The notes under the pieces: generated by a model
Database searches by the model: none
The model's input: the letters and a program-made list of their open reading frames with translations, nothing else
What the model was told of the DNA's origin: nothing
Program-made: the position numbers and the translations under genes
Shown: piece after piece, positions 42,985 to 52,335 of the stretch
How the letters are laid out: every line of letters begins with the position of its first letter
How positions within the stretch are numbered: the first letter of the stretch is position 1
NCBI RefSeq assembly: GCF_039536205.1
Contig: NZ_BAAAYL010000001.1
Location: forward strand, 4,898,001-4,962,000
Direction of reading: 5' to 3'
Source: Streptomyces sannanensis
Lineage (GTDB): Bacteria; Actinomycetota; Actinomycetes; Streptomycetales; Streptomycetaceae
DNA: 64,000 nucleotides

Positions 42985-43171
42985 CCTCATGCGCGGCCCC
43001 GGGTGCGACCGTCATCCTCTGACCGCGCACACACCCCGTTTCACCCTCGGCCACCCACGCGCGATAATCGAACGTGGGGCCGCGATATGGGGGGAACTCG
43101 GACGTCCTGATAATGGGCCGTACGGACATGGGTGCGCGGTCTGTCAGACACAAGGTGAAGGACAGGTACTC

Positions 43172-44260
43172 ATGACGACGCCCACGATCGAGCTCAAGCC
43201 GACCGCGCATCCGCTCGCGGACGCGGACCGCGAAGCGATCCTCGCCAACCCCGGCTTCGGCCGCCACTTCACCGACCACATGGTGACGATCAAGTGGACC
43301 GAGGGTCGCGGCTGGCACGACGCCGAACTGGTGCCGTACGCGCCGCTCTCGATCGATCCGGCGAACATGACGCTCCACTACGCGCAGGAGATCTTCGAGG
43401 GCCTGAAGGCCTACCGCCGCCCCGACGGTACCGTCGCCACCTTCCGCCCCGACGCCAACGCCCGGCGCTTCCAGGCCTCCGCCCGCCGCCTGGCCATGCC
43501 GGAGCTCCCGGTCGAGACCTTCATCGCGGCCTGCGACGCCCTGGTCGAGCAGGACAAGGCATGGGTCCCCGCGCACGGCGGCGAGGCCTCCCTCTACCTG
43601 CGGCCCTTCATGATCGCGACCGAGGTCGGCCTGGGCGTGAGGCCCGCCAACGAGTACCTCTTCATCGTCATCGCCTCCCCGGCCGGCGCCTACTTCCCCG
43701 GCGGCGTCAAGCCCGTCTCCATCTGGCTCTCCGAGGACCGCGTCCGCGCGGTCCCCGGCGGTATCGGCTTCGCGAAGACCGGCGGCAACTACGCCGCCTC
43801 CCTGCTCGCCCAGGCCGAGGCCGCGGAGAAGGGCTGCGACCAGGTGGCCTACCTCGACGCGCTGGAGCACAAGTGGGTCGAGGAGCTGGGCGGCATGAAC
43901 CTGTACTTCGTGTACGGGGACAAGATCGTCACGCCCGAGCTCACCGGCTCCCTGCTGGCGGGCGTCACCCGTGACTCCCTCCTCACCGTCGCCCGCGACC
44001 TCGGCTACACCGCCGAGGAGGGCCGCGTCTCCATCGAGCAGTGGCAGCGGGACACCGAGAACGGCACCCTGACCGAGGTTTTCGCCTGCGGCACCGCAGC
44101 CGTGATCACCCCGGTCGGCACCGTCAAGTCCAACGGCGGCAACTGGACCCAGGCCGACGGGCAGCCCGGCGAGGTCACGATGAAGCTGCGCAAGGCACTG
44201 CTGGACATCCAGACCGGCAGGACCGAGGACGGCCACGGCTGGATGCACGAGCTCGGCTGA
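43172..44260 (+). CDS. ilvE: Branched-chain amino acid aminotransferase
   Basis: 362 residues, fold-type IV PLP enzyme making valine, leucine and isoleucine from their keto acids. The PLP Lys lies in [50 protein letters not shown] and [15 protein letters not shown] also match the family. ATG 43172 has AAGGTGAAGGAC upstream. A 240-base gap after leuB suggests an independent promoter. Confidence 0.95.
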
Positions 44261-44304: not shown

Positions 44305-44351
44305 AACGCCTGAGGGCCGCCCCGTCTCGTACGGGGCGGCCCTCAGGCGTT
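44305..44351 (+). terminator. 21-bp stem terminator after ilvE
   Basis: A perfect 21-bp stem (44305-44325 with 44331-44351) around CTCGT, starting AACGCCTGAGGG. It isolates ilvE from the urease-like operon. Confidence 0.85.
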
Positions 44352-44438: not shown

Positions 44439-44475
44439 CTTCATTGGATTGTCAGCTTCATTGCATTGTTAGAGT
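44439..44475 (+). promoter_or_regulatory. AT-rich promoter region of the urease-like operon
   Basis: CTTCATTG occurs twice, at 44439-44446 and 44456-44463, 17 bases apart. TAGAGT at 44470-44475 fits a Streptomyces -10 box; TTGTCA at 44449-44454 could be a -35 box with a short 15-base spacer. The stretch is much richer in A/T than its surroundings. The promoter call is tentative. Confidence 0.4.
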
Positions 44476-44502
44476 GTTGTTCAAAACAGGAGGTGTGGTG
44501 GC

Positions 44503-45306
44503 GTGAGACTGACTCCCACGGAGCGCGACCGGCTGCTGCTCTTCGGGGCCGCCGAACTGGCGCGGGCGCGCCGGGCGCGTGGACTGAAGCTCAATGTCCC
44601 CGAGGCGACCGCGCTCATCGCGGACACCGTCTGCGAGGCGGCTCGCGACGGGCGCAGGCTCGCCGAGGCGATCGAGGCGGCCCGCAGTGTGCTCGGCCCC
44701 GAGGACGTCCTGCCCGGCGTGGCGGACGTGGTGACCGAGGTGATGGTCGAGGCCGTCTTCGATGACGGCTCCCGGCTCGCGGTGGTCTCCGACCCCATCG
44801 GCTGGGGGTCCGAGACAGGGGGAGGCTCGCTCGGCGACGCGGCGCCCGGCGCGGTGCTGCCCGGCCCCGAGCACAAGGAGCCGGAGCCCGCGGTGCGGAT
44901 CACCGTGAGGAACACCGCGGCCGTTCCGGTCAGTGTGACCTCGCACTTCCACTTCTTCGAGGCCAACCCCCGCCTCGACTTCGACCGCGCCGCCGCCTAC
45001 GGCATGCGGCTGAGCGTCCCCGCGGGCTCGTCCGCCCGCTTCGACGCGGGCGGCGAGGCCGAGGTCGGCCTGGTGCCGATCGGCGGCGACCGGATCGCCA
45101 TCGGCTTCGCGGGCCTGGTCGACGGCCCGCTCGACGCGCCGGGTGCCAAGGAGGAGGCGCTGCGCAGGGCAACGGCCTGCGGATACCTCGGAGCGGTGGC
45201 ACCCGACGCGGACGCAGAGACAGGGCACGCAGAGGCGGGGCACGCAGAGACAGAGCACGCAGAGGCGGGGCACGCAGAGACAGGGCACAAGGAGGAGGAC
45301 CAGTGA
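44503..45306 (+). CDS. ureAB: Fused urease gamma-beta subunit with His-repeat tail
   Basis: 267 residues. Residues 1-100 are UreA (RLTPTERDRLLLFGAAELAR; RGLKLNVPEATALIAD; ARDGRRLAEAIEAAR). After a linker, about 125-215 are UreB (VRITVRNTAAVPVSVTSHFH; DFDRAAAYGMRL; GLVPIGGDR). The C-terminus adds five AE(T/A)(G/E)H repeats rich in His and Glu, encoded by 15-bp repeats, and the ureC ribosome site AAGGAGGAGG lies in the tail codons. GTG 44503 has AGGAGG at 44488-44493. The subunit forms the urease-like enzyme with the next gene (GTGA overlap). Confidence 0.9.
   Translation: MRLTPTERDRLLLFGAAELARARRARGLKLNVPEATALIADTVCEAARDGRRLAEAIEAARSVLGPEDVLPGVADVVTEVMVEAVFDDGSRLAVVSDPIGWGSETGGGSLGDAAPGAVLPGPEHKEPEPAVRITVRNTAAVPVSVTSHFHFFEANPRLDFDRAAAYGMRLSVPAGSSARFDAGGEAEVGLVPIGGDRIAIGFAGLVDGPLDAPGAKEEALRRATACGYLGAVAPDADAETGHAEAGHAETEHAEAGHAETGHKEEDQ
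45214..45288 (+). repeat. 15-bp tandem repeat, five copies, inside ureAB
   Basis: Five consecutive 15-bp units of the form GCAGAGRCRGRGCAC encode AETGH, AEAGH, AETEH, AEAGH and AETGH. Third and second positions vary slightly. Such repeats can gain or lose copies in frame, so tail length may differ between strains. Confidence 0.85.
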
Positions 45307-46994
45307 CCGGCATCGACCCTCGTGACTATGCCGCCGTGCACGGCCCCCGGGCCGGCGACCGGATCGTCCTCGGCGACACCGGACTCGTCGTCCGCGTCGA
45401 GTCCGACGCCCAGAAGCCGGGCGAGGAGTTCCTGGCCGGCTTCGGCAAGACGGCCCGTGACGGACTGCACCTGAAGGCCGCCGCGGTCCGTGAGACCTGC
45501 GACGTCGTCATCAGCAACGTCGTCGTCATCGACCCCGTCCAGGGCGTTCGCAAGGTCTCCGTCGGCATCCGCGAGGGCCGCATCCACGCGATCGGCCGGG
45601 CCGGCAACCCCGACACCCTCGACGGCGTGGACGTCGTCGTCGGCACCGGCACCTCGATCGTCTCCGGCGAGGGCCTGATCGCCACCGCCGGCGCCATCGA
45701 CACCCATGTTCATGTGCTGTCGCCGCGGATCATGGAGGCCTCGCTCTCCTCCGGCGTCACCACGATCATCGGCCAGGAGTTCGGCCCGGTGTGGGGCGTC
45801 GGCGTCAACTCGCCCTGGGCCCTGAACCACGCCTTCAACGCCTTCGACGCCTGGCCCGTCAACATCGGCTTCCTCGGCCGCGGCTCGTCCTCGCACGGCG
45901 CGCCCCTGGTCGAGGCCCTCGCCGAGGGCGGCGCCCTGGGCTTCAAGGTCCACGAGGACATGGGCGCCCACACCCGGGCCCTCGACACCGCCCTGCGGGT
46001 CGCCGAGGAACACGACGTCCAGGTCGCCCTGCACAGCGACGGCCTCAACGAGTGCCTGTCCGTCGAGGACACCCTCCGCGTCCTCGACGGCCGTACGATC
46101 CACGCCTTCCATATCGAGGGCTGCGGCGGCGGTCATGTGCCCAACGTGCTCAAGATGGCGGGCGTGCCGAATGTCATCGGCTCCTCCACCAACCCCACCC
46201 TGCCCTTCGGCCGGGACGCGGTCGCCGAGCACTACGGCATGATCGTCTCCGTCCACGACCTGAAGACGGACCTGCCCGGCGACGCCGCCATGGCCCGCGA
46301 CCGCATCCGTGCGGGCACGATGGGCGCCGAGGACGTCCTGCACGACCTGGGTGCCATCGGCATCACCTCCTCCGACGCCCAGGGCATGGGCCGCGCCGGC
46401 GAGACCGTACGCCGCACCTTCGCCATGGCCGGGAAGATGAAGGCCGAGCTCGGCCCCCTGGCCGGCGACGGCGAGCACGACGACAACGCGCGTGTGCTGC
46501 GCTACATGGCCAAGCTGACCATCAACCCGGCCATCGCCCACGGCCTCTCCCATGAGATCGGCTCGATCGAGGCCGGCAAGCTTGCCGACATCGTGCTGTG
46601 GCGTCCGGAGTACTTCGGCGCCAAGCCGCAGCTGGTGCTGAAGTCCGGCTTCCCCGCCTGGGGCGTCACCGGCGACCCCAACGCCGCCACCGACACCTGC
46701 GAGCCGCTCGTCCTCGGCCCGCAGATCGGCGGCCACGGCGCCACCGCCGCCGACATCTCGGTCGCGTTCGTCGCCGGCGCCGCGCTCGAGCAGGGCAACG
46801 ACCGGATGCCGACGCGCCGCCGCCGGGTCGCCGTCCGCGGCACCCGTGGCATCGGCCCCGCCGACCTGATGCTCAACTCCCGCATCGGAGACGTCCAGGT
46901 CGACGCCCGTACCGGCCTGGTCTCCCTCGACGGCGACCCGATCCGCTCCGAGCCCGCCGAATCCGTCTCCCTCAACCGCCTGTACTTCCTGTAA
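45303..46994 (+). CDS. ureC: Urease-like alpha (catalytic) subunit, non-canonical
   Basis: 563 residues. Nickel-site residues are conserved: both His in DTHVHVL, the carbamylated Lys and a His in GFKVHEDMG, His in LHSDGLNE and FHIEGCGGGH, and Asp in SSDAQGMGR. The mobile flap differs: the usual MVCHHLD reads IVSVHDLK, so the flap Cys is lost and the catalytic His kept. The usual W after HED is M. The C-terminus ends NRLYFL. It starts GTG 45303, overlapping ureAB. No ureDEFG follows, so activation must rely on genes elsewhere. It may hydrolyse urea or another ureido compound. Confidence 0.88.
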   Translation: MTGIDPRDYAAVHGPRAGDRIVLGDTGLVVRVESDAQKPGEEFLAGFGKTARDGLHLKAAAVRETCDVVISNVVVIDPVQGVRKVSVGIREGRIHAIGRAGNPDTLDGVDVVVGTGTSIVSGEGLIATAGAIDTHVHVLSPRIMEASLSSGVTTIIGQEFGPVWGVGVNSPWALNHAFNAFDAWPVNIGFLGRGSSSHGAPLVEALAEGGALGFKVHEDMGAHTRALDTALRVAEEHDVQVALHSDGLNECLSVEDTLRVLDGRTIHAFHIEGCGGGHVPNVLKMAGVPNVIGSSTNPTLPFGRDAVAEHYGMIVSVHDLKTDLPGDAAMARDRIRAGTMGAEDVLHDLGAIGITSSDAQGMGRAGETVRRTFAMAGKMKAELGPLAGDGEHDDNARVLRYMAKLTINPAIAHGLSHEIGSIEAGKLADIVLWRPEYFGAKPQLVLKSGFPAWGVTGDPNAATDTCEPLVLGPQIGGHGATAADISVAFVAGAALEQGNDRMPTRRRRVAVRGTRGIGPADLMLNSRIGDVQVDARTGLVSLDGDPIRSEPAESVSLNRLYFL

Positions 46995-47004
46995 GGACCC
47001 CCTC

Positions 47005-48045
47005 ATGAGCAGCAGCACCCCTGTCGCCGACGGCTTCCGCATGCCCGCCGAGTGGGCTCCGCATGAGCGCACCTGGATGGCCTGGCCCAGTCTCAACGCC
47101 ACCTTCACCGACGCCGAGGAGCTGGACTCGGCCCGCACCGCCTGGGCCGAGGTCGCTCGCACCATCCGCCGCTTCGAGCCGGTCACCGTGGTCGTCGGCC
47201 CCGGCGGGACCGACAGCGCCCGTACGTACCTCGGTGACGGGATCGACATCGTCGAGCGCGAGCTGAACGACGCCTGGATGCGCGACATCGGTCCCACCTT
47301 CGTCACCGACGGCACCGAACTGCGCGCGGTCGACTGGATCTTCAACGGCTGGGGCGCCCAGGACTGGGCCAGCTGGGAGCACGACTCCAAGATCGCCGCA
47401 TATGTCGCCGAGCGGGCGGGCGTGCAGACGTACGCCTCCAGGCTCGTCAACGAGGGCGGCGGCATCCACGTCGACGGCGAGGGCACGGTCCTGCTGACCG
47501 AGACCGTCCAGCTCGGGCCCGAGCGCAACCCGCACTGGACCAAGGAGGAGGTCGAGGCCGAGATCCACGCCCACCTCGGCACCACCAAGGCCATCTGGTT
47601 GCCGCGCGGCCTGACCGCGGACTACGGCACCTACGGAACCCTGGGCCACGTCGACATCGTCGCCTCCTTCGCCCGCCCCGGCACGGTCCTGGTCCACACC
47701 CAGCCCGATCCGGCACACCCCGACCACGAGGTCTGCAAGGAGATCGCGGACTTCCTGCGCACCCGGACGGACGCCAAGGGCCGCACCCTCGAGGTCATCG
47801 AGGTCGCCGCGCCGACCGTCCTGAAGGAGGACGATGACTGGGTCGACTACTCGTATATCAACCACTACCTCTGCAACGGCGGTGTGGTGCTGTGCGGTTT
47901 CGGCGACGCCGAGCGCGACGAGAACGCGGCGGCGATCTTCCGTGGCCTCTTCCCGGACCGCGAGGTCGTGCTGGTCGACGCCCGCCCGATCTTCGCCAAC
48001 GGCGGCGGCATCCACTGCATCACCCAGCAGCAGCCGCGCGTCTGA
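47005..48045 (+). CDS. aguA: Agmatine deiminase
   Basis: 346 residues of the Porphyromonas-type peptidyl-arginine deiminase/agmatine deiminase family. Signatures: NDAWMRDIGPTF, VNEGGGIHVDGEGT, GTLGHVDI and the catalytic Cys in NGGGIHCITQQQP. It converts agmatine to N-carbamoylputrescine and ammonia. It follows ureC by 10 bases with AAGGACC before ATG 47005, so it is in the same operon, linking two ammonia-releasing steps. No N-carbamoylputrescine amidase gene is present in the window. Confidence 0.92.
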   Translation: MSSSTPVADGFRMPAEWAPHERTWMAWPSLNATFTDAEELDSARTAWAEVARTIRRFEPVTVVVGPGGTDSARTYLGDGIDIVERELNDAWMRDIGPTFVTDGTELRAVDWIFNGWGAQDWASWEHDSKIAAYVAERAGVQTYASRLVNEGGGIHVDGEGTVLLTETVQLGPERNPHWTKEEVEAEIHAHLGTTKAIWLPRGLTADYGTYGTLGHVDIVASFARPGTVLVHTQPDPAHPDHEVCKEIADFLRTRTDAKGRTLEVIEVAAPTVLKEDDDWVDYSYINHYLCNGGVVLCGFGDAERDENAAAIFRGLFPDREVVLVDARPIFANGGGIHCITQQQPRV

Positions 48046-48071
48046 CGTCACGCCCACGGCACATCCCCACA

Positions 48072-48125
48072 GCACACCGCCGGGGCCGGACGGGATCCTC
48101 ACCCCGTCCGGCCCCGGCGGTGTGC
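48072..48125 (+). terminator. 23-bp stem terminator after agmatine deiminase
   Basis: A perfect 23-bp stem (48072-48094 with 48103-48125) around an 8-base loop, beginning GCACACCGCCGGGG, 26 bases after the stop. It separates the operon from the TetR gene. Confidence 0.85.
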
Positions 48126-48174
48126 AACCGCTCGCCCGTATGCTGAGATCCCCGCCCCGACCACGGAGAATCCC

Positions 48175-48783
48175 ATGCCCGAGCCCGCCCGCACCACGCG
48201 GCGGCGCAATGCCGCCCCGCCGCGGGAGACCGTGCTGGCCGCCGCCCAGGCGAGCATTGCCGAGCACGGGCTGGAGAAACTCACCATGGCCGGCCTCGGC
48301 CGTGAGGTCGGCATGAGCAGCGGGCACCTGCTGTACTACTTCCGCACCAAGGACGAGCTGCTGCTGCAGACCCTGGAGTGGAGCGAGGAACAGCTCGGGG
48401 TGCAGCGCCGCTCCGCCCTCGCCCGCCAGGTTCCGGTCCGGGAGCGCCTCGACGCCTATGTCGACCTCTACGTCGCCGACGGCCCCCGCGACCCTCACTG
48501 GACCCTGTGGCTGGAGCTGTGGAACCGGGCCCACAGCCTCGACGAGGAATCCCGCAACCGGCTCCTCGACATCGAGCTCTCCTGGCACCGTGATCTGGTC
48601 GCCCTCCTCGTCGAGGGGGCCTCGCGCGGCGAGCTGCGCAAGGTCGACGCAGACAGGTACGCCACCCGGATACGAGCCCTGCTGGACGGCTTCAGCACCC
48701 ACGTGGCGATGGGCCTTCCGGGCTCCGACCGGCCCCAAGTCCTCGCGCACATCGCCGAGTTCCTCGACGAGACGCTCGTCTGA
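48175..48783 (+). CDS. TetR family regulator, BetI-like
   Basis: 202 residues. The helix-turn-helix reads LTMAGLGREVGMSSGHLLYYFRTKDELL, followed by a ligand-binding domain with WTLWLELWNRAH, as in BetI/choline or polyamine-type regulators. It directly follows the urease/agmatine deiminase operon and is the best candidate for its regulator. ATG 48175 has GGAGAAT upstream. Confidence 0.88.
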   Translation: MPEPARTTRRRNAAPPRETVLAAAQASIAEHGLEKLTMAGLGREVGMSSGHLLYYFRTKDELLLQTLEWSEEQLGVQRRSALARQVPVRERLDAYVDLYVADGPRDPHWTLWLELWNRAHSLDEESRNRLLDIELSWHRDLVALLVEGASRGELRKVDADRYATRIRALLDGFSTHVAMGLPGSDRPQVLAHIAEFLDETLV

Positions 48784-50507: not shown

Positions 50508-50549
50508 ATGATTATCGGCAGCAGCGCGCCGGTCCGCAGTGACCGCTGA
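50508..50549 (+). CDS. Candidate leader peptide of the cimA attenuator
   Basis: The frame MIIGSSAPVRSDR (ATG 50508) has two Ile codons next to its start; an in-frame GTG at 50493 would add VLAFA. It ends 54 bases before a T-run terminator and 185 bases before citramalate synthase, an isoleucine-pathway enzyme. The start and ribosome site are weak, so this is a candidate only. Confidence 0.45.
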   Translation: MIIGSSAPVRSDR

Positions 50550-50602
50550 CCCGCGACAACCTTCCGCGGCAGCGGTCATCGTGCCCCAGACCCGCGCGCA
50601 GA

Positions 50603-50628
50603 CCTCTCGCACCCGCGAGAGGTTTTTT
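50603..50628 (+). terminator. Attenuator-type terminator before cimA
   Basis: CCTCTCGC (50603-50610) pairs with GCGAGAGG (50615-50622) around ACCC, followed by six T (50623-50628). It stands between the promoter region and cimA, and closely resembles the ilvB attenuator in design. Confidence 0.8.
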
Positions 50629-50733
50629 CGTTTCCCGGCCCCACTCACGGCCGAGTCGGACCCACGCGCGATGATGGGGGCAAGTGGAGCCCGGAATTCC
50701 GGAACCACTCACCCGACAGGAGTCACCACAGCC

Positions 50734-52335
50734 ATGACCACGACAGGTCCCGACGACAGCTTCCATGTCTTCGACACCACACTGCGCGACGGCGCCCAGC
50801 GTGAGGGCATCAACCTCACCGTGGCGGACAAGCTGACCATCGCCCGGTACCTGGACGACTTCGGCGTGGGCTTCATCGAGGGCGGCTGGCCGGGCGCCAA
50901 CCCACGCGACACCGAGTTCTTCGCCCGCGCGAAGAAGGAGATCAGCTTCCGGAACGCCCAGCTGGTCGCCTTCGGTGCCACCCGCCGGGCCGGAGCCACC
51001 GCCGCCGAGGACCTCCAGGTCAAGGCACTCCTCGACTCCGGCGCCCCGGTGATCACCCTGGTCGCCAAGGCACACGACCGCCATGTCGAGAAGGCCCTGC
51101 GCACCACCCTCGACGAGAACGTGGAGATGGTCCGCGACACCGTCTCGTACCTGCGCTCCCAGGGCCGCAGGGTCTTCGTCGACTGCGAGCACTTCTTCGA
51201 CGGCTATCGCGCCAACCCCGCCTACGCCAAGCGCGTCGTCCGCGCTGCCGCCGAGGCGGGCGCCGATGTCGTCGTCCTGTGCGACACCAACGGCGGCATG
51301 CTGCCGGCCCAGGTGTCGGCGGTCGTCTCCACCGTCCTCGCGGACACCGGTGCCCGCCTCGGCATCCACGCCCAGGACGACACCGGCTGTGCGGTCGCCA
51401 ACACGCTCGCCGCCGTCGACGCGGGCGCCACCCACGTCCAGTGCACCGCCAACGGCTACGGCGAGCGCGTCGGCAACGCCAACCTCTTCCCGGTCGTCGC
51501 CGCGCTGGAGATCAAGTACGGCAGGAAGGTGCTTCCCGAGGGCGCCCTTCAGGAGATGACCCGGATCTCCCACGCCATCGCCGAGGTCGTCAACCTCACG
51601 CCCTCCACCCACCAGCCCTATGTGGGTGTCTCCGCCTTCGCCCACAAGGCCGGCCTGCACGCCTCCGCCATCAAGGTCGACCCGGACCTCTACCAGCACA
51701 TCGACCCCGAACTCGTCGGCAACACCATGCGGATGCTGGTCTCCGACATGGCGGGCCGCGCCTCCGTCGAGCTCAAGGGCAAGGAGCTCGGCATCGACCT
51801 CGGCGGCAACCGCGAACTCGTCGGCCGGGTCGTCGAGCGCGTCAAGGAGCGCGAGCTCAACGGCTACACCTACGAGGCCGCCGACGCCTCCTTCGAACTG
51901 CTGCTCCGCGAGGAGGTCGAGGGCCGGGCCCGCCGCTACTTCCGTACGGAGTCGTGGCGCGCCATCACCGAGGACCGCCCGGACGGTTCGCACGCCAACG
52001 AGGCCACCGTGAAGCTGTGGGCTAAGGGCGAGCGCATCGTCGCCACCGCCGAGGGCAACGGCCCGGTGAACGCGCTCGACCTCGCGCTGCGCGTCGGCCT
52101 GGAGAAGATCTACCCCCAGCTGGCCAAGATGGAACTGGTGGACTACAAGGTCCGCATCCTGGAGGGCAAGCACGGCACCCAGTCGATCACCCGCGTGCTG
52201 ATCACCACGACGGACAGCACCGGCGAATGGTCCACCGTCGGTGTCGCCCCCAATGTCATCGCGGCCTCCATGCAGGCACTCGAGGACGCCTACACGTACG
52301 GGCTGCTGAAGGCCGGGGTCGAGCCGGCGGAGTAG
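50734..52335 (+). CDS. cimA: (R)-citramalate synthase
   Basis: 533 residues of the TIGR00977-type family, related to 2-isopropylmalate synthase. The barrel begins HVFDTTLRDGAQREGINLT, with the metal-binding HAQDDTGCAVAN and a C-terminal LeuA-dimer regulatory domain (KVRILEGKHGTQSITRVL). It condenses pyruvate and acetyl-CoA to citramalate, feeding threonine-independent isoleucine synthesis. ATG 50734 has CAGGAG upstream. The family is sometimes named leuA2 in Streptomyces; citramalate activity is inferred from family. Confidence 0.9.
   Translation: MTTTGPDDSFHVFDTTLRDGAQREGINLTVADKLTIARYLDDFGVGFIEGGWPGANPRDTEFFARAKKEISFRNAQLVAFGATRRAGATAAEDLQVKALLDSGAPVITLVAKAHDRHVEKALRTTLDENVEMVRDTVSYLRSQGRRVFVDCEHFFDGYRANPAYAKRVVRAAAEAGADVVVLCDTNGGMLPAQVSAVVSTVLADTGARLGIHAQDDTGCAVANTLAAVDAGATHVQCTANGYGERVGNANLFPVVAALEIKYGRKVLPEGALQEMTRISHAIAEVVNLTPSTHQPYVGVSAFAHKAGLHASAIKVDPDLYQHIDPELVGNTMRMLVSDMAGRASVELKGKELGIDLGGNRELVGRVVERVKERELNGYTYEAADASFELLLREEVEGRARRYFRTESWRAITEDRPDGSHANEATVKLWAKGERIVATAEGNGPVNALDLALRVGLEKIYPQLAKMELVDYKVRILEGKHGTQSITRVLITTTDSTGEWSTVGVAPNVIAASMQALEDAYTYGLLKAGVEPAE

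Follow-up and report, generated by a model that had tools for sequence, protein, structure and literature searches.

The DNA analysed here, referred to as the window, is a stretch of 64,000 nucleotides from the 7.8 Mb genome of Streptomyces sannanensis (G000:C1:4898001-4962000). At 44503-48783 it carries four genes, all on the plus strand: a gene for fused urease gamma and beta subunits (ureAB, 44503-45306; PF00547 and PF00699, with NCBIfam PRK13192 above cut-off), a gene for a urease-like alpha subunit (ureC, 45303-46994; PF00449 and PF01979), an agmatine-deiminase-like gene of the PAD_porph family (aguA, 47005-48045; PF04371, E 3.9e-113) and a TetR regulator gene encoding a BetI-type C-terminal ligand domain (48175-48783; PF00440 and PF13977). 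Scans with Pfam and NCBIfam profiles confirmed both the limits and the gene content that a preliminary description had given for this region. All four urease Pfam domains score above cut-off, which places the products in the urease superfamily with its UreABC fold. The ureAB and ureC genes overlap by four bases and aguA follows ureC after a gap of ten bases, an arrangement that suggests a single transcript. The operon, which is bounded by ilvE (42989-44260; NF009897 above cut-off) and cimA (50539-52335; TIGR00977 above cut-off), points to an unrecognised breakdown route for guanidine-type nitrogen compounds.

The UreC protein of the window retains every metal and catalytic residue (H135, H137, K215, H217, D219, H244, H270, H318, R334 and D358), and the earlier statement that its nickel ligands are conserved is correct. 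Equally correct is the earlier remark on the flap, which reads IVSVHDLK, with Val in place of Cys and with the catalytic His retained. A bigger change than that of the flap concerns the substrate loop, which holds urea in canonical urease; canonical loci have GG[GS] at this place, and the window UreC has GQEFGPVWGVGVNSPW. The replaced loop is the one that holds A167 in K. aerogenes. Against the urease alpha equivalog TIGR01792 the protein scores 632.5 bits and does not reach the cut-off of 680, and NCBIfam names it at subfamily level. Its 120 best database matches, from Streptomyces and a few Actinacidiphila, all have a flap of the form SVHxLK, and SAHxLK is found in other members of the family Streptomycetaceae (hereafter the family). 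The AlphaFold2 model of UreC (predicted local distance difference test, pLDDT, 86.5; predicted template modelling score, pTM, 0.92) has solved ureases as its best structural matches, with template modelling (TM) scores of about 0.9-0.96 over the model length at 40-45% identity; for the iron urease 3qga the values are TM 0.94 and 43%.

A total of 118 UreC loci with flanking sequence, drawn from Streptomycetaceae, a wider sample of the phylum and named genomes, were scanned with profiles for UreA, UreB, UreC, UreD, UreF, UreG and the deiminase. Across all 118, the ten metal-binding and catalytic residues listed above (H H K H D H H H R D) are invariant. The GG[GS] loop is present in 61 loci, 58 of which carry ureD, ureF or ureG. 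The other 57 loci have a remodelled loop, and none of them carries any of the three genes (0/31 Streptomycetaceae rows and 0/26 others), a count which is weighted by one family, since 31 of the 57 rows are Streptomycetaceae. The loop sorts the loci with and without ureDFG save for L163 (on a 4.8 kb contig), L164 and L180, which have the canonical loop and no ureDFG in the stretch examined. The flap residue is distributed as 57 C, 3 S and 1 V in the canonical-loop set and as 37 V, 17 A, 2 C and 1 S in the remodelled-loop set. As a key marker the flap Cys had to be rejected: it is kept in the accessory-less loci L127 and L128, and it is replaced by Val in the canonical locus L099 and by Ser in three rhizobial canonical loci, all of which have ureDFG. 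The emphasis which the preliminary description laid on the flap Cys is right for its loss here, and the loop is the more diagnostic feature. Fusion of ureA and ureB was likewise discarded as a marker, being scored in 51/57 remodelled-loop and 16/61 canonical loci.

A UreC tree was built from 58 of the 118 rows, unrooted and with the loop and flap columns taken out. A single branch splits the remodelled-loop from the canonical set, with a support of 100 in a quick tree and 100/100 in a careful one, and all 200 bootstrap trees of the 58 representatives recovered it; the row of L005 is long and the composition of eight canonical rows is unusual. The window UreC thereby belongs to a deep branch of the ureases outside the canonical clade, and throughout this branch, as far as it was sampled, ureD, ureF and ureG are lacking beside ureC. 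The question raised earlier, whether this type of UreC stands outside the canonical ureases in a clade that always lacks accessory genes, is answered in the affirmative within that sample (0/57 loci).

Profiles for ureD, ureF and ureG gave no match in the 64-kb window, in agreement with the earlier observation that no accessory genes follow the operon. Elsewhere in this genome UreF has no match at all, UreG has weak matches only (best E 1.4e-40), and UreD is represented by one fragment with an internal stop (G000:C4:66556-67008; L006). The 113 kb contig with the broken UreD also carries, by reading, UreG-like remains; the two look like what is left of a canonical urease cluster. Among 200 family genomes a window-type UreC (E <= 1e-200) is encoded in 140, and 126 of these also encode UreF. 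UreF is missing in 25 of the 200, where five of the absences were deduced from the match list; a window-type UreC is present in 14 of the 25 (G000, G171, G306, G360, G383, G395, G401, G420, G427, G432, G434, G448, G468 and G486). The best UreG match in these fourteen has an E value of 1.4e-40 in G000 and of about 3e-7 to 4e-4 in six, with none in the remaining seven; the weak matches may be HypB. All fourteen have a PAD-family gene, and their UreC genes are free of stops and have a median ratio of nonsynonymous to synonymous substitution (dN/dS) of 0.22 (range 0.06-0.31, 91 pairs).

A further set of 34 handles with an accessory-less UreC consisted of 23 of 24 named loci (the truncated L124 was omitted) and 11 genomes, with G084, G224 and G578 excluded. 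As L220 equals L118 and L141 matches L221 reversed, the 34 handles stand for at most 32 genomes, and for the named ones no completeness is stated. UreG is above cut-off in 10 of them, namely six Streptomycetaceae (L143, L145, L150-L152 and L162), G218, L157, Pseudonocardia L121 and Nonomuraea L127, and does not exceed it in 24. The retention of the enzyme in genomes without UreF or a strong UreG suggests that it may function without accessory proteins.

These data bear on two simpler explanations. The complex could be an ordinary nickel urease served by borrowed UreDFG proteins whose genes lie at another place in the genome, its separate branch reflecting fast evolution only, and both the unchanged ligands and the UreF genes of 126/140 operon-bearing family genomes would fit. 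However, the other 14 of the 140 lack UreF and a strong UreG and yet show low dN/dS in UreC, an above-cut-off UreG is missing in 24 of the 34 other handles, and the branch is not only separate but well supported; we therefore consider borrowing improbable. The altered flap Cys and substrate loop could also be read as signs that hydrolase activity has been lost and that the complex is structural or regulatory. Ten invariant positions in 118/118 loci and a low dN/dS are unexpected for a dead enzyme, which makes this the most improbable of the explanations discussed here.

The deiminase-like gene scores 316.2 bits against the agmatine-deiminase equivalog TIGR03380 and does not reach the cut-off of 381.8, and seven linked PAD homologues that were scored are all below it (best 357.8). 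"Agmatine deiminase", the name used in the preliminary description, holds at the level of the PAD_porph family and should be taken as a family-level name only. The motifs WMRDIGP, EGG, GHVD and IHCITQQ could be aligned, and we take them to be the catalytic motifs of the family. With a threshold of E <= 1e-20 for a PAD-family gene anywhere in the genome, and with genomes not listed counted as absent, 139 of the 200 family genomes have both a window-type UreC and a PAD-family gene, one has UreC only (G485, at a contig edge), 14 have the PAD gene only and 46 have neither. At the level of the locus a PAD gene accompanies 34/57 remodelled-loop UreCs and 0/61 canonical ones; the 34 comprise all 31 Streptomycetaceae rows and three of the 26 others (L098, L100 and L121, the deiminase of the last being 3.6 kb from UreC). 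Mapped on the tree, its presence in the locus takes four changes, or three if L121 is omitted. In L224, also outside the family, a ureC truncated at the edge of the contig lies together with ureB, ureA, aguA and tetR; the draft genome G224 has a contamination of 7%. The linkage to aguA, which had been proposed from the single locus, is thus near-complete in the family and occasional outside it (the three loci and L224).

In L117 (G481) ureABC is lost and aguA-tetR is kept between ilvE and cimA (L117 6986-8056). In L116 (G107) aguA-tetR is kept as well, the contig stops just past aguA, and the sole UreC match of the genome is of canonical type. Outside the family, the L098 type occurs in 4/149 genomes of its class and the L100 type in 10/27 genomes. 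Within the latter ten, aguA adjoins ureABC in two (L100 and L224), a polyamine-type ATP-binding cassette (ABC) transporter follows ureC in three (L102-L104, the PotA of L103 being above the TIGR01187 cut-off), and neither aguA nor a polyamine transporter was seen in five (L101, L218, L219, L220 and L223), three of which are on short contigs or cut. A scan of viral contigs for the deiminase gave a match of 16 residues in one locus and, in a second, a match at the end of a contig. The latter, L096, is filed as viral in IMG/VR, carries a 71% identical deiminase and is possibly a misfiled bacterial contig.

Upstream of ureAB lies a palindromic operator-like site, TTAGAGTGTTGTTCAAA (44469-44485, plus strand), which is probably the binding site of the TetR protein, as predicted from sequence. 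The corresponding 17-base pattern TTNGARYRNYRYTCNAA matches once in the 64-kb window, at this site, and in none of 100 shuffles. The palindrome, or a near-identical pattern, is present in 50 of 52 distinct ureAB-upstream regions, all from the family; since the pattern was built from these same sequences, this figure is a fit. The better evidence is given by the single match in the window together with L117, where ureABC is lost and the palindrome stands directly before aguA. The TetR proteins of the window and of L224, where the gene is beside aguA and ureABC, are 35% identical over 184 amino acids. Two hairpins flank ureABC-aguA (neither assigned to a strand). The one in the gap between ilvE and ureAB (44313-44343) is a perfect inverted repeat with 12-base arms and is terminator-like, putatively closing the ilvE unit. 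The other, a strong hairpin in the gap between aguA and tetR (48073-48124; inverted repeat core with 22-base arms), is not followed by a T run and is predicted to be the probable end of the ureABC-aguA transcript.

The enzyme expected after an agmatine deiminase, the N-carbamoylputrescine amidase AguB, is above the TIGR03381 cut-off in none of the 200 family genomes. We propose that the operon serves a TetR-controlled catabolism of a guanidino compound, in which the ureido product of the PAD-family enzyme is cleaved by UreAB-UreC without nickel maturation, a reading that we hold to be about evenly balanced between right and wrong. The substrate, the reaction, the metal and the binding of TetR are the parts that we infer; agmatine is the most likely guanidino substrate. 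The PAD-family enzyme would take one ammonia off the guanidino group and leave a ureido compound, which would be N-carbamoylputrescine if agmatine is the substrate. UreAB-UreC would then hydrolyse the ureido group, giving amine, CO2 and ammonia, and so take on the task of AguB elsewhere. The remodelled loop and the Val flap may make room for an N-substituted urea; because the replaced loop is the urea-holding site of canonical urease, a larger substrate is plausible. The metal centre would have the ligands of urease and would receive its metal, possibly one other than nickel, without help from the urease GTPase, and TetR would bind the palindrome before ureAB until released by substrate or product. 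What the preliminary description had observed at the locus is confirmed by this work, and its interpretation is partly supported.

Several findings weigh against this proposal. CN-hydrolase relatives of AguB below the cut-off are present in 200/200 family genomes, also in those without aguA, and could cleave N-carbamoylputrescine; in most genomes their score is near 260 bits, against a cut-off of 410, and the best one is weaker than E 1e-60 in 10/200, six of which have a window-type UreC. The earlier statement that no amidase for this compound is present is thus true of the locus and has to be qualified for the genomes. The PAD gene, being under the agmatine-deiminase cut-off, may have a substrate other than agmatine, and its occurrence without a window-type UreC in 14/200 genomes, some of them with contig-edge or weak and distant PAD matches, means that it does not depend on that enzyme. 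Of the 26 loci outside the family, 23 are without a PAD gene next to UreC, 22 of the 34 handles have no PAD-family gene anywhere (12 have one), and by reading no guanidino-type neighbour is found in L105, L138, L141, L154, L218 and others. Neither the second-copy loci L110-L114 nor L143, L224, L100 and L098 gave a match to the palindrome. The corresponding genes of S. coelicolor are reported in PMC3293853 to be unresponsive to arginine or ArgR.

A last point against the ureido substrate comes from Thermomicrobia, where UreC adjoins agmatinase-type genes whose product would be urea. In L125 (6292-11307) accessory-less ureA, ureB and ureC have as neighbours a DUF1989 gene and a pair of Arginase-family genes; one of the pair was tested and is above the agmatinase cut-off (TIGR01230), and L130 has, by reading, a similar DUF1989/agmatinase-type neighbourhood. 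Together with the precedent of Helicobacter mustelae, these neighbours are the reason for taking seriously urea as the main rival substrate. The complex would then be a true urease independent of accessory proteins, like the second urease of H. mustelae, and the PAD neighbour would make urea from guanidine or act in parallel in nitrogen scavenging. The retained ligands and catalytic His would suit such an enzyme, as would the fold shared with solved ureases, the iron urease included. Against it, the loop that holds urea in canonical enzymes is replaced in 57/57 accessory-less loci, and we know of no PAD-family deiminase that acts on free guanidine. Moreover, the 126/140 genomes with UreF probably have a canonical urease, so that a second urea enzyme in a deiminase operon would need another reason. 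On balance we regard action on urea as rather unlikely, though clearly less so than borrowed maturation.

Extending the proposed cleavage of ureido compounds beyond this operon, the branch could represent a class of urease-fold hydrolases without nickel machinery, using another metal and acting on N-substituted ureas, which replaces AguB in Streptomycetaceae and some relatives; we put this forward only tentatively. The class may preserve a state ancestral to the nickel ureases, on a tree that is unrooted.

The neighbours of other members of the branch are varied. Five family members have second copies of the operon (L110-L114). Near these copies lie between two and four genes of the PAD family, further TetR genes and genes for oligopeptide-type ABC transporters, of which L114 shows the first transporter gene only; some of the PAD-family proteins of these copies have, by reading, export-type N-termini. 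In the Nonomuraea locus L127 an amidohydrolase (by reading) and an amino-acid permease are beside UreC, and in L143 aguA, an Amidohydro_3 protein and a cytosine/purine-type permease are near it. From these varied neighbours guanidino or ureido nitrogen emerges as a recurring theme, though not a universal one. The S. sannanensis genome itself has a second accessory-less fused ureAB-ureC (L005), with TVHGGH as flap and followed by an Amidohydro_3 protein and a major facilitator superfamily transporter. Its UreC matches lie at G000:C1:535628-535984 and 6873369-6873725, mirror positions on the 7.4 Mb contig, a symmetry suggestive of terminal inverted repeats no shorter than about 536 kb.

A functional tie to the flanking ilvE and cimA was considered and dismissed, as the second copies in the family and the distant relatives are located elsewhere; the placement appears to be coincidental. 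The UreAB of the window ends in a tail of GHAE-type repeats with five His, nearly confined to this genome among the relatives compared. The idea of the tail as a built-in metal store was dropped as a family feature, nearly all relatives compared being without it.

Urease is the textbook example of an enzyme dependent on dedicated nickel chaperones, and this branch keeps every ligand. Its members in genomes without a detected chaperone GTPase make testable which metal is used, how the carbamylated-lysine centre assembles unaided and whether nickel dependence came later. Should a ureido compound prove to be the substrate, the operon would also fill a missing step in how Streptomyces makes use of agmatine or guanidino nitrogen; the genes concerned carry no more than a urease annotation there.

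On annotation and synteny, we take the window operon to be almost certainly the orthologue of SCO5525-5527 of S. coelicolor, with which it shares, as with the S. avermitilis cluster, a fused ureAB and a ureC without accessory genes. SCO5525-5526 are described as ureABC and SCO5527 as a homologue of the arginine-decarboxylase pathway (PMC3293853), and a cluster of ure(AB)C only was reported in 2008 for S. coelicolor (SCO5526) and S. avermitilis (PMC2492869). The latter paper groups ure(AB)C with the UreC of P. syringae and Bradyrhizobium, and in the part of it consulted the deiminase, the loop and the maturation-less genomes are not mentioned. The tag SCO5526 is given to another operon in PMC4991794, probably by a slip. 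That Streptomyces has a ure(AB)C cluster on its own is therefore already known; for the wider class and the pairing of urease with deiminase, no account was found in narrow literature searches that covered few subscription papers, nor are the two described in the consulted part of a paper on Streptomyces polyamine catabolism (PMC5403932).

The UreC model has the same fold as the iron urease UreAB2 of H. mustelae (PDB 3qga), and at 43% identity is no closer to it than to other ureases. To our knowledge, no deiminase partner is known for UreAB2. This enzyme is reported to be functional without nickel and accessory proteins (PMC2846917). In the AguA-AguB pathway of P. aeruginosa, agmatine is converted to N-carbamoylputrescine and then to putrescine (PMC9397018). 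The window operon shares with that pathway the AguA-family deiminase and the ureido intermediate and final product that would be expected, and differs from it by the lack of an above-cut-off AguB in the 200 family genomes and by having a urease-like complex in the operon instead. With the canonical nickel urease (UreABC with UreDEFG, of the K. aerogenes and S. pasteurii type) it has in common the subunits, the fold, the metal ligands and the catalytic His and Arg, and it is set apart by the absence of adjoining maturation genes, the replaced loop, the Val flap, the separate branch and the deiminase partner.

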